Origin: Phytophthora colocasiae
Lineage: Eukaryota; Oomycota; Peronosporomycetes; Peronosporales; Peronosporaceae
Direction: 5' to 3'
NCBI GenBank assembly: GCA_018806915.1
Contig: JAGKQI010000020.1
Location: 558,001 to 622,000 of the forward strand
Length of the DNA: 64,000 bases
Part shown: piece after piece, positions 1 through 9,347 of the stretch
How positions within the stretch are numbered: the stretch's first letter is position 1
Layout: every line of letters begins with the position of its first letter
Translations under genes and position numbers: made by a program
Notes under the pieces: model-generated
The model's database searches: none
What the model saw: the letters and a program-made list of their open reading frames with translations, nothing else
What the model was told of the DNA's origin: nothing

Positions 1-435
1 GCCGCCCTGTGGTTTTTAACACAGAACGTTGGAGCACTGTGCGGGGACTTCGATTCCCGCACTTGACCTGCAAGACGACGACTTTCAAAGAAGTCGTCGA
101 TCGCTTGCACTTGTTCACGCGGCAGTGGCCACTGCCGTGTAACACAGTACTTCGTGCCCGGCACGAGATCAATCTCGTGCTGTACGCCCTTATCCTTCGG
201 AAGCTCCGAAGGAATCTCGTCCGGGAGTACATCCTTGTACTCCCGCAGAACTTCGTAGTAGGGACTCGACCTCAACGAGTCCCAACTCTGCTCTTCGAAG
301 TGCTGCTTCTTAGTCTTCGCACTGAGGGAGTCATCTGACACGTTGCTAATTACGATTTTTCGAGTGGATATGGACGTTTCGCTGTGATGTGATTGGACAT
401 ATAATGGATTGTGGGAGAAAGGGAGATGTGGGACG
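1..435 (-). pseudogene. Gypsy reverse transcriptase, N-terminal fragment
   Basis: The minus strand from about 430 down to 1 translates without stops. It shows the usual entry into a Gypsy RT: an EYKDVLPDEIP segment, then KGVQHEIDLVPGT, RQWPLPREQ and SPHSAPTFCVK. These match the stretch just upstream of and into the RT fingers of oomycete Gypsy elements, as I recall them. Upstream, an in-frame stop at about 435 closes the frame, so the fragment is disconnected from the protease/linker. The catalytic YXDD motif would lie beyond the left edge. Six perfect hairpins with 7-9 bp stems lie in these 340 bases. Confidence 0.8.
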
Positions 436-2115
436 AGGTTATGTCCCGTGCGACAATAATGGATCTGTGGAAGAAAACTGCTTTATATATTAACCTTCAC
501 CTGTACTGCAAAGGGGCCCAAGAGATCAGAAGTGTTCCTCGGAAAAGTGCACAAACTCCGAGAGGCAATAACACTCAGTCTGATCACCGGACTTTCCCCG
601 ACGATGAGTGCCTAAAGGTTGGCAGAAAGTCTCTCAGAAGAATGTATCTCTGAGAGACCTCATCCCGTTGCCGTCCTGTGTGACGATGATGGTTCAAGGA
701 ATATAATTATACCCACAAGATACCAAGTATCGCGCACCGGACGTAGCGCACCCCGCGCATATCCCGATTGGACTTCGTGCGTTGTAGCATACGTGCTCCG
801 CTCCCTAAAAACGCTCATGGATTTCTGGTATCACGCATAGAAATTCTGATATCACACCATGAAGTCTGATGTACATGAAGTCCGACGTACATGAAGTCCG
901 ACGTACATGAAGTCCGACGTACATGAAGTCCGACGTACATGAAGTCCGACGTACATGAGTCTGACGAACATGATTCTGGTAAACAAGTCTGATGTGTCCG
1001 GCTTATACAAGCAATATTCCAGACATCACCAGTTTCCGATGAACAGACTCTGACGTACAAGACTCCGATGATCAGACCCAAGTGTCACGACTCTGGTATT
1101 TACGACTCTGATGTACATGATTCCGGGGTACATGGTTCCGATGAACATGTCTCCGACGTACATGATTCCAGACCCTGATGAACAGGATACCAGACTCTGA
1201 CACTCTGAAGTCCACCCCATACTGAAACCAAGTGTACCCAACACGACCTCACGCAATCAAGTGAAACGCAGCCTGCCCATCCCTGTAATGACATCATTAA
1301 GTGTCGACTCGACAAGATCTGCAGCATCGACTACCATAGTGAGCCCAAGTGAAGATTCCTGAGTTATACTGAGACCAAGTGTATATGAGAATATGGAAGA
1401 CAGAAGACAGAGAGATACGAGATAGATAACCAGAGTTCAATTTGATCGGTACCCCCGAGTTAAATTTGCGTTACAACCCCAAGGTCGATTCGTCGGTTCT
1501 TCGGAAGTGTAAGGCCACGACAAAGCTTTGAGTCGTGTGATCTCTCACCTATCAAGCCCCTTTAGGTGGAGATCAGCGTAACGTAGAGACCTGAGAGGAC
1601 CCACCTATTCCATTTACTAGTTGGGTCGTTTGTCTTGTCTCTAGCGGTAGCCCATTTCATATTGTACGTTTGGACAGGTTTTGGGAGCTAGACAGTCGCT
1701 CTCAAGACGCTCGGTAGACTGTTATATAACTGATAGTGTATTGGTTTATTTTCCCTCTATATATTAGAGGGTGGTGCGCGAAAGTTACGGGAATACCGGA
1801 CAGACCAGGTGTCTGGTGAACATTTCCCTAGTTGACCTGGAGAACTAGCCCACTGCTCAAGGGCCAGGAAAGAATAAGAGCAGCTACATATTTGTATATC
1901 GGAACTCTATATTGCGGTTATCTCGGAAGTCTAACTACTGGACTTCCCATTGTATTAATCTCTCTTTTGTTTTCAGAAATCTCTGGTGTACACAAGTGTT
2001 CACCGGAAAACATTCGACTCTCAAGCGCTCCTGTGAGGACCAGAAGGACATCCGACGGCCTACGCAAGGAACCCTCACTCTCATCAACACTCTCACGACC
2101 CCGGCGAGGGTCTCA
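436..2115. other. Non-coding interruption inside the Gypsy polyprotein, possibly LTR-derived
   Basis: No convincing coding sequence is present; short open frames here are low-complexity readings of tandem repeats. The segment separates the Gypsy linker (ends near 2116) from the RT fragment (starts near 435). It contains a 16-bp tandem repeat at 858-953, degenerate copies of that unit out to about 1200, an AT-rich TATA-like stretch near 1755-1775 and a few hairpins (for example 630-657). Nested LTR insertion or decayed Gypsy sequence are both possible. I could not find matching ends or a target-site duplication. Confidence 0.45.
858..953. repeat. 16-bp tandem repeat, six units, with decayed copies downstream
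   Basis: Six consecutive units of CATGAAGTCCGACGTA run from 858 to 953. The first has two C-to-T differences and the others are identical. From 954 to about 1200 the same motif continues as 13-16 base variants (CATGATTCCGGGGTA, CATGTCTCCGACGTA and similar). The unit is not a multiple of three, so it is not a protein repeat. There are no spacers, so it is not a CRISPR array. Confidence 0.9.
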
Positions 2116-4000
2116 TTACCAAGACAACGAACCTACGAGGACAGCACAAGGTAACACACGCCCACCTTGCTGTGCGACTCTGGTATTACTACCGGTAGTC
2201 ACACTTCCAGGTTCACTGTACGCCCCTGCACCGCGGTAAAAGTTGCACCGACTTCGCGACACATCACCCTCAGTGATCCCATCGACGACGAGCTGCTTCA
2301 GCTCTTCGGCCTCGCGCTCCACTCTCTCGATATCCGAGAGAATGCAAATTTGTTCGATGCGTCCATCGTACAAGTCTCGCGCGAAGCGCTTCCAACTCAT
2401 CGTTGGAAGTGCGGTCAACGCCGACGCACTCGTCGGCGGATTCTCCAACCGCATCCTCTGGTACTGTAACCCAGTACCAGTACGTGTCAAGACGTTCAAC
2501 GTCTCGACACTCGGTGTCTGCACTGCAGATACACCCGTCTCAGTCCCGGACTGAGACTCGCGCAGCTCCCTGAGCTTGCGCCGCGAAGATCTACCATGGA
2601 GCCCGGCTCCAGGTGCTCCACGTCCAAGGCATCGCACCATGGACGGGACGTTATCGCTATCGTCAGCGGATTCCTTCCGCTGACTCGCACTATCAAGCCC
2701 GGCTTGAGTGCCGCTCATCGCGTGCAGCGCTGCTGCACGTGAGCACGCAGGTTGTTCGGGTGCTGGGCGTTTGCAACCGCCAGCACCTCCTGCCGCGCAG
2801 TCGGTTCCCTGAACCGCTGCGCCTCCATCCGCTCCCGGAGCGGATGAAGCAACCGCATCGTCGACTCCCGGAGTCGACGTGCTCTCGCTAGCTTCCTGCG
2901 CTAGCGAGTGTTCGCTTGTACACATATCATCCGTTCCCAGAGCGGATGTACGATCGCTAGTTCCCGGAACTAGCAGCGACTGTTCGCCTATACACGTCTC
3001 ATCAGCTCCCGGAGCTGATGACCGATCGCTAGTTCCCGGAACTAGCAGCGAAGCGCCAGTGGCGTCAACTCCTAGAGCTGACGCACGCCTTTCGGTTCCC
3101 CGAATATTATTTACTTCGTCAACTCCCAGAGTTGACGCGACGTCGTCGGCGCGACCCTTGGGGGCTTGAAGTACCTCCAAGGATACCGGTAATACCGGTA
3201 TTTTACCTTCTCTCAGGTGAATGCGATTCACCTGACCATCACTCATGTGACAAACATCATTCAGATGTTTATGCGTCAGGTGATTCACATTCACCTGACC
3301 ATCACTCATGTGACCGCGACCCTTCGGCTCAGATTTCTGAGTCGACACACATTTTCTCCCAACGACTCCCTGAGTCGCTGGTGGTCGCCGGCGGCGATCG
3401 GAGGCAGCAGCGGACGCTGTTGCCTCAGCTGGGGAATCATATGCACCGCCTGGTGCATGTGCAGCACTGACAGGGCCATCGCTCTCTGTCGCGCATGCGT
3501 TGTTGAAGCGTACGAGCGTACGCTTCTCCCAGTTGATCACCGGGTCATGCCGTGCAAGCCACGGCATGCCTAATACCAAGTCGAACTTATCGTCTAGATC
3601 CAAGACGATAAGATCTTCTACAAACGTCCTTCGTTTGTAAGAGAAGCGCACACGGACTACGCGCTTCTCAGTCCTCACGGTGGCACCTGTTGCCAACCGC
3701 ACCGCTGCGAGGCGTGTCGGCTTCTTCGAAGTCAAACCTTCGAAGACTTCCCTGTCGAACAAAGTTGTTCGACGCGCCCGAGTCCACTAGGGCACGAAGA
3801 GAGTTCACTCTCTTCGACATCACGTTCAGGATGACAAGGTTTGGCTTGTCATCTTGCAGCTTACAGCGAGAAACCTTCTCGCTGGGGGCAGCAGTCCTCA
3901 TCGTCGCGTGTCCAAGCTCGACACGCGAGACTGCATCACCAGTAGGACGCCCCGCGCCTACTGGTCCTTGGCGTTTTTTGAACGCCCGCCCGCTGTGCAC
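2116..4000 (-). pseudogene. Gypsy aspartic protease plus repetitive linker, frameshifted
   Basis: The protease active site ALVDSGASNNFV is read at 4000-3668 in one frame. The rest of the protease (DKFDLVLGMPWLARHDP, then INWEKRTL) is read at 3762-2116 in another, the same frame as gag. A frame change within about 3700-3770 therefore splits the domain. After the protease comes a roughly 400-residue linker rich in Ala, Ser and Thr, with repeats around LVPGTSD and LGVD/PGVDD. It ends with a conserved-looking SWKRFARDLYDGRIEQICIL segment before coding similarity stops near 2240. The DNA of the linker is an array of palindromes. Confidence 0.75.
2826..3137. repeat. Array of near-perfect palindromes in the Gypsy linker
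   Basis: Perfect inverted repeats occur at 2826-2846 (10-bp arms), 2859-2879 (10), 2884-2908 (9), 2956-2974 (9), 3000-3020 (10), 3028-3046 (9) and 3117-3137 (9). Most have a single central C between CTCC/GGAG or TTCC/GGAA inner ends, so the arms are almost contiguous. The 2956-2974 and 3028-3046 copies are identical. The DNA encodes the repeated LVPGTSD-like protein motif on the minus strand. Confidence 0.9.
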
Positions 4001-4950
4001 TCGCGTGCATAGTGACCGATGTTACTACACTTGTACATGTAACATCGAACCTTGCTGTTCCTACGCTGCTGTTGACCAGCAGTCGTAGCACTCGAGAGGT
4101 CCATAGGTTCCGGACCTCCCGTCTTCACAACAGGACGCGCCGGCTTCGGCGCGTTCGCATGGAGTTTAGCTTGACGTCGGCTAAACTCCTCTTGCATCGC
4201 AAGGCTGATCGCCTCTTCGAGAGTATTCGGATACTCTCGGAAGAGATATGTTTTGACGGGACCATCTCTTAGTCCCTTCGTGAACGTGACGACCTTGGTC
4301 GCCTCGTCGATCGGGTTGGCCACTATGTTCGATACCAAGTATCGAGCACGCTGGGCAAAGGTGTGAACATCATCCTTGCCCTGCTGCAGATCGAGAAACT
4401 CCGCTCTCGATCTGAACTCGTTCTTCGGGGGCTCAAACGCAAGCTTGAGCTCCTCTTTGAACACCTCGTACGTGCCGAAGCACGTAGGATCCGAGAGTCG
4501 GCGCCCATAGGCCCAACTCCTCGCACGTCCGCCAAGACATGACATGGCGAACGCGACCTTCGACATCGGATCGACGATACGTCGAGCCGCAACGGTTGTG
4601 TCAAGTTCGACAAGCCAACGAAGGAGGGTCTCGTCCTCCTTCCCCGTGTAGGTACTCACGTGGAGTTTCAACGACTCCACGCGTGGCTTAGGGGAAGCCA
4701 CCGAGGCAGCAACATCTCGTTGCTCCTTAACAATGTACCCCAGAGCAACACCGTGTTGCTCTGTCGGCGATAGCGCACGAAGCATCGTCGCTACCGCTGC
4801 CTCTCCAATGACTTGTGAAAGTCTTTGGAGAGCTTCCCACTCTGGATCTGACAGGTGGGCACAGTCCGTGCGCGTCACGGACATGTGAGGGGCCCCAGCG
4901 GATCCCTCATCCATTGGGGAGTTCTCTACCCCGCGTTCGTATGACTCCAT
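3958..4950 (-). CDS. Gypsy Gag-like protein (330 aa)
   Basis: An intact 330-residue ORF encodes a retrotransposon Gag, which packages element RNA. The central part, with segments such as KVAFAMSCLGGRARSWAYG and FVSRAEFLDLQQGKDDVHTF-type residues (read as FRSRAEFLDLQQGKDDVHTF), matches the retrotransposon gag family of oomycete Gypsy elements. The C-terminus has a zinc-knuckle-like sequence, CYMYKCSNIGHYAREC. The last three ligands are normally spaced (C-X4-H-X4-C), but the first cysteine is displaced: the canonical position is Met and the nearest Cys gives C-X4-C. The ATG at 4950 is the first in frame. Five hairpins checked in 4620-4957 show that the coding sequence is unusually self-complementary. 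Confidence 0.8.
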   Translation of the reverse strand: MESYERGVENSPMDEGSAGAPHMSVTRTDCAHLSDPEWEALQRLSQVIGEAAVATMLRALSPTEQHGVALGYIVKEQRDVAASVASPKPRVESLKLHVSTYTGKEDETLLRWLVELDTTVAARRIVDPMSKVAFAMSCLGGRARSWAYGRRLSDPTCFGTYEVFKEELKLAFEPPKNEFRSRAEFLDLQQGKDDVHTFAQRARYLVSNIVANPIDEATKVVTFTKGLRDGPVKTYLFREYPNTLEEAISLAMQEEFSRRQAKLHANAPKPARPVVKTGGPEPMDLSSATTAGQQQRRNSKVRCYMYKCSNIGHYARECTAGGRSKNAKDQ

Positions 4951-5441
4951 ACGAACGAACAGCAGTCGGTCGTGGGACGGACTGGTGTAATGGGTCTACT
5001 TAGACCTATTAGGTGGCGTACACGTGCGCTTACGTGTATGAGGAAGCGTGCAATTAGAATAGACTTAATTTAAGTATACTTATTTAAATAAGTATAATTA
5101 AATCAAATATAACTAAATGAAACTGCAAAAATACCGTAAAATGAGAACTGTTATTGAATTTGGCATAAGCCAATTATGGACCTCCTAAAACTGTTTGTTA
5201 TCTATTTCTAAAGGGTCTGCCAACGTGTGGTTGGCAGAAACTCTGCTCAGTGATTGGTAGAAATCCGTTACTTTCTACCAATAATATGCACAAATGCACA
5301 CGAACCATCCAATAATGTGGTTCGCCCATGTATCCTTTGGTGTGTACAGCACACCAAGGTCTGAGGCCCATGTCCAACCTCTAACAGTTATCCTAACTGT
5401 TAGAGTTACAAGTGGTACAACCACTTGTACGTGTAACCCCG
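4951..5441. other. Gypsy 5' flank: AT-rich palindrome followed by hairpin array, no gene
   Basis: Upstream of gag on the minus strand lies non-coding DNA. 5040-5160 is AT-rich and contains a perfect 22-base palindrome at 5075-5096. From 5216 to the Copia junction the sequence is almost entirely hairpins. This position would normally hold the Gypsy leader or LTR, but no LTR end or primer-binding site could be assigned. Confidence 0.6.
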
Positions 5442-5447
5442 TTACAC
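5216..5447. repeat. Seven back-to-back perfect hairpins
   Basis: Perfect inverted repeats follow one another: 5216-5238 (9-bp arms), 5253-5282 (11), 5301-5324 (7), 5337-5357 (8), 5379-5405 (12), 5407-5429 (9) and 5431-5447 (7). Loops are 3-10 bases. The last one contains the stop codon and breakpoint of the adjoining Copia ORF. About 130 of 232 bases are in stems. Confidence 0.92.
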
Positions 5448-8400
5448 TCCAGCACTTCCACTTGGCAGTAGCTCTCCAGGTTCCTCACCATCGTGGTCGT
5501 CTCCGATTGGAGTTCTCACGGGGACTGCCTTATCCAGCTGGAACTTTACCAGCATATCCTCGATCACCTTTTCTTGATCCAATGTCCATCCGCTCTTGTC
5601 GTCGTAGTTGAACGAGACCCCCAGGAACTTCGATACCACTCCAAGGTCCTTCAAATCCACTACCTGCATGTCTGTGAAGAACTGGTCTACTTTAGCAACA
5701 CTCGTAGCCGTCACCAGGATATCATCCACGTAAATACCCACAAGTGTCATACCATCCTTCTCATCCTTGATGTACAAACAACTGTCCGAAAAGCACTGCA
5801 CGAAACCTAGCGAGACGAGAATCGAGTGTAGCAATTGGTTCCACAGTCTTCCAGACTGTTTTAACCCGTACAGTCCCTTTTCCAACATCAACGCTAACTC
5901 GTACTTGGTGAGCTGCTCGTCGGTAAATTCCATCCCCTTCGGAATAAGAAGCAAAATGACCAAATTTTTTTCTTTTTTCGCTTTGACGTTAGCGCTTGGT
6001 ACATCGCCGTGCCGAGCTGGAACATTCCAGATTCTTGACACCACCAGAATAACTCTTAAAGAAGTCAATTCGAGAACTGCTGAAAATGTGTACGTGTAAT
6101 CTACACCGTACTCCTGTTCATCGCCGCGAGCCACTAATCGTTCCTTGTACCTTTCCACCGTGCCGTCCGCATGAGTCTTCAGTTTGAACACCCACTTGGT
6201 GTGCAGAAGCTTGGCGTTCTCAGGTTTCCTCACTACTCGCCATGTTTCGTTCTGCTCGAGAGCTTCAATCTCCTCCCGAATTGCTTGTTTCCACTTGTTC
6301 GCTCGCGGATCTCGCATCGCTTGCCTATAGTTCTTGGGATCTTCTAGCACGACCGAGTTTACTCTGTCCACTGGCACATGTTTCGCTCCCATGTTGCGTG
6401 TTCTCATGCGTGTCACCGGTTCTTCTTCAGCTGGCAACTTCTCATCGTCAGCATTACCAGCTCCTTCCACTTCGTCAGCTTCTTCATGTCTTGAATCTTG
6501 GTTCTTATTCTTGTTCTTCTTCTTTCTGGATTTATCTTTCTTCGAGTTGGTCTTGTTTGTCGTCTTCTTTTGCTTGGTGACTTCTTCGCGATCTTCAACA
6601 GCTCTTTTCAACTCTGGATCCTCGCGTTCGAGCTGTAATTGCAGCTGCTCGTTCTGCTTGCTGTTCAAGGTCTCCACGTTCTTGATATGCTGAGTAGTTA
6701 TCACGATTCTGTCCTTGGGCAGGTAAACTTTGAAGCCTTTGGTTTCGTCATTCTTTCCCACGATCATCCCCACTTCAGCCCTTGGTTTCCACGACTTTTT
6801 GCCAGGATCTCTGTATGCAGTGCAGGAGCTGCCGAACACCACTATCTCTGACAAATTCGGGACATTTCCGGTTAATAACTCGATGGGAGACATTCGCTTT
6901 GAGTTAGCCCGACATGAGCTCCGATTCAGCACAAACGCCGCATATTCGACAGCATCACCCCAAAAGTAAAGAGGTAGTGCACTAGCAAACAGCATACACC
7001 TCGCAACATTCAGGATCGTCCGATGCATGCGCTCAGCTTTCCCGTTTGAGGCCTGGTTCTCTCGCTCGCTCACTTGCCGTCGGACGCCAGTCGCTTTGCA
7101 GAATGGATCCACATTTATATACTCCTTCCCGCCGTCGGTGCGGAGCACATGGATCTTGCAGTTAAATCGTTTCTCGAAATACACCAAGAATTGCTCGAAG
7201 TTCTCTGTAGCTTCCACCTTGTTCTTTGCTAGGGACACCCTCACGTAATTTGTAGAGTAGTCCACGAAATTAATCATGTATCTGTTTCCGCGTCTGTCTT
7301 TCGGAGTCATCAGGCCCTTGATATCACTCCCAATTACACCGCCAATCTTGTCGATCGGGGCATTCGTGCCGCTGTCCTTCTTACTCTGATTGTTCTTGCA
7401 TTGCTTACCCTGAGCACAGGTTAAACAATTGAGTCTAGCCCTGCTGGTCAGCTTGATTCCCGAGCCAACCGCATCTGCCATCTTCTCCACTGTGTCATAC
7501 GCGATATGTCCTAAGCGCTCGTGCAGTTCTAGCAGTGTAGTCTCGGTCACTGCAGTTTCCATTTCTTCACCTGCTTCTTCTACAGCCTGCATGACAGCAT
7601 CTGCACGCACCTCCACTCCCATTGGTACTTCGCCCATCGCGTTCACCCACAGCACCTTATTGCGTCTGAACACCTCGAAGACTTTCATCCCAGTGTCTTC
7701 TTTCACAGCATAACTTTTTCCGTTGGTGCGCTCTAGGAATACACCTTTCTCCTCCAATATACCATAGCTAATGATATTATCTGGCAGATTCTCTCCGTAA
7801 TGAACGTCCTTTAAGTCCACTACCACCTCGTTGCCGTCTACAATTGCCCGTAGCACGACAGTTCCTTTCTTGTTCACGCGAAAATGATTTCCACTCGCAG
7901 CAACGTATCGTTCGTCACAGTCAACTGCATCTCGCAGCAGCTTCTCATCTTTGACCAGATGCACACTGGAACCACTGTCCAAGATCCACCTGTTGTTTTC
8001 TTCAGCTGCACTGGTCTTCACTGCGAGTGAGACCTTGGTCTCCTTAGTGCCACCACCTTTCTCCAGGCAACACCAAGCCAAATGCTCAATTTCGCCACAG
8101 TTGTAGCACTTGCGAGTCTCTGTTGACGCAACTCGCGCGACAGACTCATTTGCTCGTCCACTCTGGCTACCTCGACCTCCTCCACTGGTCTGACCTCCTC
8201 GACCACGACTTCCACGTCCGCCTTGGCCGCGTATGTTGTCTTGTTTGTTCATTGTCTCTTCATACTCGATCGCAAAAGACACTAACTCGGTAGCTTGTTG
8301 CAGGTAGTCCACCCTCTGCGAGTTCAATCTGGTCAACATTGCGCTTTGTAAGTACGGAGGCGCCGACTTGCACAAGCTCTGCAAGACATGTAAATCCGAG

Positions 8401-9347
8401 CAGCCCGATCGTTCAGCCACGTACGTGATGTACTGATAGTGATCAGTCCAGGTCCTATTCTTATCTTTTTCTGCTGTCATCAGCTGCAGTCCTTTAGCAG
8501 CCGAAATAGTTGTCATGTAGGGTACAAGCATCCTATTCATGACGTGTTCCAGCGTCGGTGACTCCGTTGTCCACAATGGAACCATACGTTCGAAGTAAAC
8601 TAGCGCAGAACCATTGAGTTTCCCGTTTAGTGCCAAAATCCTGAATTCTTCAGGCCAGTCACCGCCGCTCATCTGTTGAGCTGCCCCCAGTCGTTGTAGG
8701 AACCGCAGTCCCCATGCTTTAAAGTCTGCACCAAGTCCAGGATAAACTTCTTTCCCTGAAAACCTTTCGAAGCCTGGCCAATCGAGGTCACGTAGTTTGG
8801 GAATTTTTACACCGAAGTTCGTCGGTGGCGAGTTCTCCCCGGGTAGTGATGCTCTCTTCTCTTGCTGCACTTGTGGTTGCTGAGGAGCAACTGGAGTTTC
8901 CACCGGCCGTGGCGTCACCGGAGGTGGTACTGCTGCAGGCACCGAGGGCATTGGATCGTCTAGAGATCCTACTCTCATCCGGCGATCCCTCGCCTTCAAG
9001 AAGTCGGTGAATGCGCTGGAGCCTGAGAACGTGTTCTCGAAGGGCGACGGATGCGGCACCTCAGTGCGATGCTGCATCTGTTGCTGGAGCTTGGCCTGGT
9101 CCTTGATGAACTGCATCTGCTGCTTGGCTAACTCTTCGATGAGACCTTCAAGTCTATCAAGACGCTCAGAGCTCTCGCTTGATTTCCGACTTCCCCTCCC
9201 AGGAGCACTAGATGCGCCAGAATCCGAGTGCGCCCCTTCAAACAACTCGAACGGGTCTGAAACCACGTTCGGTCCTGAATTGTCGGCATCGCGCTCGTTG
9301 CCAGGACATTGTCGTCGTGAAGCGTCATCAGATCCGCTTGGGCTCAT
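5442..9347 (-). CDS. Copia-type Gag-Pol polyprotein (1301 aa), truncated before RNase H
   Basis: A single ORF contains Gag with a CX2CX4HX4C knuckle (CYNCGEIEHLAWCC, about residues 410-425), a protease (WILDSGSSVHLV), GAG-pre-integrase (HERLGHIAYDTV with CLTCAQGKQ) and an integrase with D,D,E residues visible in GSDIKG, LRTDGGKEY and NGKAERMHRT. Reverse transcriptase follows, with the YVDDIL catalytic motif near residue 1190. The order protease-integrase-RT is diagnostic of Ty1/Copia. The protein stops about 65 residues after the YVDD block, at LLPSGSAGV, where related elements continue into connection and RNase H domains. The 3' LTR is also missing. The ATG at 9347 lies inside the primer-binding site. 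RT motif A reads GDVPSANVKA, with Asn where Tyr/Phe is usual. Confidence 0.9.
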   Translation of the reverse strand: MSPSGSDDASRRQCPGNERDADNSGPNVVSDPFELFEGAHSDSGASSAPGRGSRKSSESSERLDRLEGLIEELAKQQMQFIKDQAKLQQQMQHRTEVPHPSPFENTFSGSSAFTDFLKARDRRMRVGSLDDPMPSVPAAVPPPVTPRPVETPVAPQQPQVQQEKRASLPGENSPPTNFGVKIPKLRDLDWPGFERFSGKEVYPGLGADFKAWGLRFLQRLGAAQQMSGGDWPEEFRILALNGKLNGSALVYFERMVPLWTTESPTLEHVMNRMLVPYMTTISAAKGLQLMTAEKDKNRTWTDHYQYITYVAERSGCSDLHVLQSLCKSAPPYLQSAMLTRLNSQRVDYLQQATELVSFAIEYEETMNKQDNIRGQGGRGSRGRGGQTSGGGRGSQSGRANESVARVASTETRKCYNCGEIEHLAWCCLEKGGGTKETKVSLAVKTSAAEENNRWILDSGSSVHLVKDEKLLRDAVDCDERYVAASGNHFRVNKKGTVVLRAIVDGNEVVVDLKDVHYGENLPDNIISYGILEEKGVFLERTNGKSYAVKEDTGMKVFEVFRRNKVLWVNAMGEVPMGVEVRADAVMQAVEEAGEEMETAVTETTLLELHERLGHIAYDTVEKMADAVGSGIKLTSRARLNCLTCAQGKQCKNNQSKKDSGTNAPIDKIGGVIGSDIKGLMTPKDRRGNRYMINFVDYSTNYVRVSLAKNKVEATENFEQFLVYFEKRFNCKIHVLRTDGGKEYINVDPFCKATGVRRQVSERENQASNGKAERMHRTILNVARCMLFASALPLYFWGDAVEYAAFVLNRSSCRANSKRMSPIELLTGNVPNLSEIVVFGSSCTAYRDPGKKSWKPRAEVGMIVGKNDETKGFKVYLPKDRIVITTQHIKNVETLNSKQNEQLQLQLEREDPELKRAVEDREEVTKQKKTTNKTNSKKDKSRKKKNKNKNQDSRHEEADEVEGAGNADDEKLPAEEEPVTRMRTRNMGAKHVPVDRVNSVVLEDPKNYRQAMRDPRANKWKQAIREEIEALEQNETWRVVRKPENAKLLHTKWVFKLKTHADGTVERYKERLVARGDEQEYGVDYTYTFSAVLELTSLRVILVVSRIWNVPARHGDVPSANVKAKKEKNLVILLLIPKGMEFTDEQLTKYELALMLEKGLYGLKQSGRLWNQLLHSILVSLGFVQCFSDSCLYIKDEKDGMTLVGIYVDDILVTATSVAKVDQFFTDMQVVDLKDLGVVSKFLGVSFNYDDKSGWTLDQEKVIEDMLVKFQLDKAVPVRTPIGDDHDGEEPGELLPSGSAGV

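Follow-up and report, generated by a model that had tools for sequence, protein, structure and literature searches.

Short perfect hairpins run through a family of Gypsy retrotransposons in Phytophthora colocasiae

Introduction

In genome-scale ordered RNA structure (GORS), a coding genome is structured throughout, and PMC9784701 proposes that this shields the RNA from host recognition. Among retrotransposons, the long terminal repeats (LTRs) of maize Sirevirus elements carry clusters of palindromes linked to small RNAs (Bousios et al. 2016, as cited in PMC10760457), and plant Retand Gypsy elements carry antisense open reading frames (ORFs; PMC11963269). In a word search of the Retand paper, the terms hairpin and inverted repeat were absent and 'palindrom' occurred only in the references. 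Here we analyse a 64,000-nt stretch of the P. colocasiae genome (GCA_018806915.1, contig JAGKQI010000020.1, 558,001–622,000; hereafter the window), which begins, at positions 1–5447, with part of a Ty3/Gypsy element filled with short perfect inverted repeats (IRs). In the family of this element, family A, these hairpins form a second, structural code that is real, strong and family-specific.

A hairpin array in the window

A preliminary description had taken positions 1–5447 as one element whose coding DNA is saturated with IRs, of which only a few would be expected by chance. Counting maximal perfect IRs with arms of at least 7 bp and loops of at most 12 nt, we found 67 in this segment (12.3 per kb), compared with 3.5 ± 1.95 and a maximum of 9 in 100 dinucleotide shuffles, so the observation is stronger than first stated. 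The remaining 58.5 kb of the window contained 48 IRs, with 0.5–1.2 per kb in the three blocks that cover it. Nothing comparable had been reported from a Copia ORF and a BEACH gene, and this contrast holds: the Copia ORF had 1 IR (2.0 expected) and the BEACH region had 5 (5.7 expected from dinucleotide shuffles). Twenty of the 21 examples originally listed are perfect where they had been placed, with arms of 7–10 bp and loops of 0–7 nt; the remaining one, at 4801–4832, combines an 8-bp arm with a loop of 16 nt, beyond the limit set in the description itself. The listed IR at 194–212 extends outward by one further pair.

The array is not confined to coding DNA. It runs through the gag and pol parts, as had been claimed, but the LTRs carry IRs too (Table 1). 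Of the gag, protease and reverse transcriptase (RT) codons that the IRs were said to cross, those of the RT domain lie almost wholly to the left of the window, with the match reaching position 18. Nor is the segment a single hairpin-saturated element: IR density is uneven because positions 336–2261 are a later insertion. Seven other family copies align to 1–335 and 2262–5447, and none aligns to 336–2261. This piece of 1,926 bp has TG...CA ends and CATC on either flank, and in our reading it is a solo LTR, derived from a different LTR element and nested within the Gypsy element. With 3 IRs (1.6 per kb; 1.5 expected from dinucleotide shuffles of 340–2261) it serves as an internal negative control. 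About 40 near-identical relatives occur elsewhere, many of them paired about 15.6 kb apart (range 11.7–15.7 kb among the neighbours compared), which suggests a large source element. A minisatellite with a 16-bp unit lies inside this insertion, at 858–973.

The array across family A

We examined ten copies of family A, several of them partial, and the array spans these copies from LTR to LTR. A full-length copy of 8.3 kb (L011:421–8686) contains 148 IRs (17.9 per kb), compared with 5.6 ± 2.2 after shuffling, and seven more copies have 83–94 IRs per approximately 4.75 kb each. Greedy selection in L011 left 141 non-overlapping hairpins with a median total length of 23 nt, a median centre spacing of 46 nt and loops mostly of 10 nt or less; 38% of the element is covered and 30% lies in stems. 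The array stops at the element ends, with 5–14 IRs per 500 nt inside and 0–4 outside (L009, L011 and L013–L017 with their flanks).

Synonymous shuffles that kept protein and codon usage (200 per ORF) fell far below the observed numbers: pol had 77 IRs versus 4.7 ± 2.2 (maximum 14), gag 12 versus 1.0 ± 1.0 and integrase 36 versus 2.5 ± 1.4. The same procedure gave no excess in Copia (1 versus 2.3) or BEACH (4 versus 3.5). The commonest arm is 9 bp, with 48 IRs at exactly this length versus 0.2 in shuffles. The three pairing registers relative to the codons of pol are nearly equally used (28, 23 and 26), and therefore amino-acid positions would be drawn in, not wobble positions alone. Chance, codon usage or base composition is a negligible explanation for the array: nothing but the G+C content of 54% speaks for it, and it is ruled out by both kinds of shuffle and by the scarcity of IRs at other RT loci.

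Two sequence features stand out locally. Near sense position 1993 of the L011 element, at least one copy has a loopless, perfect 21-bp palindrome, far above the usual stems. In the linker of the window element, positions 2903–3046 form a 72-bp tandem pair (85% identical), each copy ending in the palindrome GCTAGTTCCCGGAACTAGC.

Sister families with shorter stems

The preliminary description had proposed comparisons with synonymous shuffles, related copies and other Gypsy families. The finding withstood the first two, as described above; for the third, the array proved absent from other RT loci, but weaker arrays are present in sister families. All 30 other RT loci analysed, the best 30 of 150 scored, lack the array (0–1.3 IRs per kb); 24 of them match the RT of the element at 30–36% identity, and the other six have no match at E 1e-10. 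Six of six arbitrary 6-kb genome pieces also lack it (0.5–1.7 IRs per kb).

A degenerate RT pattern, with family A's own codon excluded, occurs at 403 places in the genome, which we take for related families; of the three places read, two belong to family C and one to family B. RT of these families is 65–70% identical to that of family A, and their arrays are weaker: 9.2 IRs per kb in family C (L056), with 41 IRs in 4.0 kb of the second C copy, and 3.0 per kb in family B (L057). In family C, too, the array stops at the element boundary, with 60 IRs in 7 kb and 0 in the final 1 kb. Each family has its own excess of arm length over synonymous shuffles: 5 bp in family B (105 versus 39.7 ± 6.7), 6 bp in three ORFs of family C (13 versus 2.6, 8 versus 2.5 and 11 versus 2.7) and at least 9 bp in family A (50 versus 0.6 ± 0.6). 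A peak of this kind was not seen in five other RT loci, Copia or BEACH. Separately, six family B RT-pattern matches recur every approximately 7.16 kb on the + strand of G000:C19:873639–909474, and this is probably an LTR element repeated in tandem.

Variation among copies is depleted in stems

Selection for folding had been one of the causes proposed for the IRs, and variation among copies supports it. When two of the ten copies were compared at stems defined in a third, pairwise differences were 0.0123 in stems, 0.0234 outside hairpins and 0.0337 in loops. Variants shared by at least two copies, in columns with at least eight copies present, occurred at 0.0045 per site in stems, 0.0236 outside and 0.0367 in loops; this comparison used stems that are perfect in L011, so that some stem-breaking alleles of that copy are censored. 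Circular shifts of the hairpin map gave 0.0189 ± 0.0026, and none of 1,173 shifts was as low as the stems. In pol, the depletion held at four-fold sites (stems 0/253, outside 8/414, loops 4/53) and at codon positions 1–2 (1/890, 18/1598 and 4/209). By region, it is present in gag, the linker, RT-integrase (RT-IN) and the 3' part. The two family C copies differ at 2/574 stem sites, 59/3074 outside sites and 6/214 loop sites; because stems were defined in one of the two copies, the stem value is an underestimate, by as much as about half. In family A loops, variants of any kind reached 0.112, compared with 0.076 in shifted maps (5 of 1,173 shifts as high).

From these alignments, we read the stems as under purifying selection and the loops as free, and we think it likely that local hairpins are kept by selection. 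An explanation by mutation alone is that RT switches template in nascent strands and thereby perfects imperfect palindromes, with no function needed. Such switching would fit the perfect stems, the loops mostly of 10 nt or less, the strand symmetry of mismatches in family A, the differing hairpin positions between families and the limitation of the feature, among the RT lineages examined, to a single one. The A branch also has a mild imbalance of one-sided changes (28 in the left arm, 42 in the right). However, in an alignment with families B and C, A-branch changes per hairpin were not one-armed (difference sum 34 versus a null of 37.8 ± 4.9; 40 ungapped hairpins, with gapped ones dropped), and stems were no more diverged than the rest (A-derived 0.144 versus 0.164). 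Stems with two differences (arm of at least 8 bp) had one in each arm in 77 cells and both in the same arm in 39, in counts that include the same copies repeatedly. Stems are less variable than the rest even at four-fold sites, and mutual copying of arms should yield many compensated pairs, whereas two Watson–Crick states among copies were seen in 5 stem pairs, 2 of them in a tandem-repeat region and 1 without a partner position in L011. The mark of quasi-palindrome mutation, clustered changes that convert one arm into the complement of its partner, was not found in this test. Given roughly even change in the two arms and no greater divergence of stems, template switching, one of the causes first proposed, is disfavoured relative to selection, and we regard it as improbable.

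Both strands are predicted to fold

Folding z-scores, calculated with 20 shuffles for one 150-nt segment every 300 nt, were strongly negative for the sense and antisense strands of family A (−4.84/−5.09) and family C (−3.5/−4.2), and weaker for family B (−1.4/−2.3); the solo LTR, Copia and another Gypsy locus scored close to zero. In L011, 28 of 28 sense segments and 27 of 28 antisense segments lay below −2. One explanation is selection for tight, GORS-like folding of the genomic sense RNA only, serving particle packing, stability or translation control, with antisense structure as a by-product. The strong predicted sense folding agrees with this, and the greater variability of loops than of the rest overall means that no loop-binding protein need be assumed. 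Family C points the same way: its stems with arms of at least 10 bp and an internal wobble have 12 G-U and 1 A-C mismatches (shuffles 1.9 and 1.1), and the second C copy, which is 97.9% identical and thus not independent, has 10 and 1. Family A, the strongest case, has 15 G-U and 30 A-C in the same class (shuffles 2.4 and 2.1) and 10 G-U, 11 A-C and 9 others among fixed single mismatches; all these counts are small, and copies within a family are not independent. Given the G-U preference in C and its absence in A, C behaves like a sense RNA under selection, whereas A does not. In addition, the antisense strand of A folds at least as strongly by z-score, and packaging alone leaves the lack of an array in other Gypsy families of this genome unexplained. 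Overall, we consider compaction of the sense RNA alone a rather unlikely cause.

The lean of family A towards sense A-C, which is G-T in the minus strand (30 versus 15; P ~0.04 by our own binomial estimate, treating stems as independent), would instead suit a role in DNA, either as hairpins in single-stranded minus-strand cDNA (protection or strand transfer) or as cruciforms in integrated DNA, and so would the inclusion of the LTRs in the array. Family C leans in the opposite direction, however, and at 9 bp, palindromes lack the length for ready extrusion from a DNA duplex. A DNA-level role is therefore unlikely.

An antisense gene

Families A and C each carry a long, conserved antisense ORF in the stretch from integrase to the 3' LTR; it measures 552 amino acids in A (stop to stop) and 524 in C. 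Among the candidates scored, 493 are homologous to the A protein at E ≤ 0.001, including sequences from P. citrophthora (84%) and P. sojae (~50%); a search with 338 amino acids of the C protein gave 141, including P. lilii (53%) and Aphanomyces stellatus (50%). The two proteins have no detectable kinship to each other, and the antisense protein has no Pfam family above the cut-off. Neither the antisense ORF nor any of the 19 homologues aligned with it matched TRP28 at E values up to 0.1. Outside the overlap with pol, shared variants in the A ORF fall at antisense codon positions 1, 2 and 3 in 2, 2 and 19 of 282 sites each, and this third-position excess marks the protein as selected there. The element is thus probably ambisense, in which case both RNAs would exist and could pair, making hairpins on two strands plausible as a defence.

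The carrier element and its parts

The carrier is a minus-strand Ty3/Gypsy element with the order gag-pol-chromodomain, which is probably chromovirus-like. It reaches leftward past the window edge to ~C94:553225, and its partner LTR lies outside the window at ~L009:5225–5685. Copy L015 encodes gag, protease (RVP), RT, RNase H, integrase, SH3 and chromodomain domains, and its three ORFs match PF03732, PF08284, PF00078, PF17917, PF17921, PF00665, PF24626 and PF00385 over the cut-off. The LTRs of L011, at 421–879 and 8225–8686, are 99.1% identical; in the sense direction the LTR starts with TGTAAC and ends with CATTACA, and the extracted piece is one base longer. The RT-RNase H protein occurs at no fewer than 113 places in the genome at 89–100% identity, a lower bound from 113 of 4323 candidates scored. 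Its best named protein relatives are from Phytophthora: P. idaei and P. cactorum (89%) and P. rubi (92% over 94% of the query). Aphanomyces also has protein-level relatives.

Table 1. Coordinates of the Gypsy element, its hairpin array and the antisense ORFs; plain numbers are positions in the window
Feature	Position	Strand	Remarks
pol stretch just upstream of the RT domain, Gypsy element	1–335	−	8 perfect IRs (23.9 per kb); RT match ends at 18
Insertion read as a nested solo LTR, TG...CA	336–2261	.	No IR enrichment; CATC duplication at 332–335 and 2262–2265
Protease/linker part of the Gypsy pol ORF	2262–3762	−	28 IRs (18.7 per kb); domain names taken from copy L015
gag ORF	3958–4950	−	12 IRs (12.1 per kb); Retrotrans_gag, Ty3_capsid and zinc knuckle named in copy L015
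5' LTR of the Gypsy element	4985–5447	−	9 IRs (19.4 per kb); outer end 5446 or 5447
Hairpin array	2262–5447	.	56 perfect IRs (17.6 per kb), arm 7–12, loop 0–11
Family A antisense ORF	L011:870–2525	+, antisense to element	No Pfam family over the cut-off
Family C antisense ORF	L056+L059 3444–5015	−	Between integrase and 3' LTR

Discussion

The whole sequence of family A, protein genes included, has probably been selected to fold locally, with one short perfect hairpin per approximately 50 nt. Such hairpins would keep sense and antisense RNA from annealing into long double-stranded RNA (dsRNA) and would hinder pairing with 21- and 25-nt guide RNAs, while a single stem would be too short to be cut as dsRNA. 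PMC3804510 reports Phytophthora small RNAs of 21 and 25 nt, the 25-nt class mainly from transposable elements. In PMC3522703, P. infestans LTR elements have twice as many 21-nt reads as 25/26-nt reads, and small RNAs lie in both orientations along two Gypsy elements. It is possible, although doubtful, that the hairpins serve in blunting RNA silencing. The broader reading, that selection for short perfect local hairpins, silencing evasion included, has shaped the family from LTR to LTR, seems to us evenly balanced between right and wrong. More speculatively, and with less confidence than in a role against silencing as such, this could be a retrotransposon clade with silencing armour in its own coding sequence: both RNA strands would be tiled, each hairpin would be about one guide RNA long, and stems just below dsRNA recognition would have been raised in length stepwise by family (~5, 6 and 9 bp), as in an arms race.

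Several observations weigh against selection for hairpins or against a role in silencing. LTR stems are not less variable than outside sites (0.0187 versus 0.0176), and loops exceed outside sites in every region but RT-RNase H-integrase (RT-RH-IN; 0.0163 versus 0.0227). Singletons are rarer in stems (0.041 versus 0.064), which also fits a lower net error rate there. The G-U preference over A-C expected if sense RNA alone were selected is lacking in family A, and the part of its antisense ORF that overlaps pol has no codon-position signal (shared variants 1, 4 and 3 of 163). Hairpins cover only 38% of the element with a median gap of 23.5 nt, so guide RNAs could still bind, and in maize transposons strong structure goes with more small RNAs, not fewer (PMC10760457). 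Individual hairpins are also poorly kept between families: 4 of 45 mapped family A hairpins are at least 80% paired in family C, and A pairs mapped to C are 49.6% Watson–Crick at 62% identity, slightly more than a rough unconstrained expectation of 43–46%. Compensated pairs between A and C have no clear excess (24 both-changed in register versus 22–34 when slid). Given this turnover, the property kept in the long term seems to be density and stem length rather than individual hairpins, and together with the free loops it suggests that hairpins are selected as structure, not as sequence.

An entire coding mobile element under a second, structural code raises the question of how far coding sequence can bend to RNA folding, and by what force. 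If silencing were that force, the hairpins would be a cis-acting route for a transposon to stay active, with sister families of 5, 6 and 9 bp coexisting in one genome; silencing armour, if real, would represent a class of transposon counter-defence that is new and acts purely in cis. In practice, anyone annotating or aligning such elements has to reckon with constraints other than those of codons.

Among described systems, chromodomain Ty3/Gypsy elements, the chromovirus-like group, share gag, RVP, RT, RNase H, integrase, SH3 and chromodomain with our element, and the hairpin array and antisense gene set it apart. Retand-type plant Gypsy elements also have an antisense coding region between pol and the 3' LTR, but Retand is non-chromoviral with TRP28 (PMC11963269); we reject membership of that lineage because our element has a chromodomain and no TRP28 match. 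Maize Sirevirus elements likewise carry palindromes, linked to small RNAs, but these are clustered in a cis-region of the LTR (PMC10760457), whereas here unrelated sequences form hairpins throughout the LTRs, gag, pol and the antisense gene. With GORS, the element shares the spread over whole coding sequence and a folding energy far below that of shuffled sequence, as predicted for L011. The carrier here, however, is an integrated LTR retrotransposon rather than an RNA virus genome, and its structure consists of discrete short perfect hairpins with a family-specific stem length, strong on both strands and extending into the LTRs.

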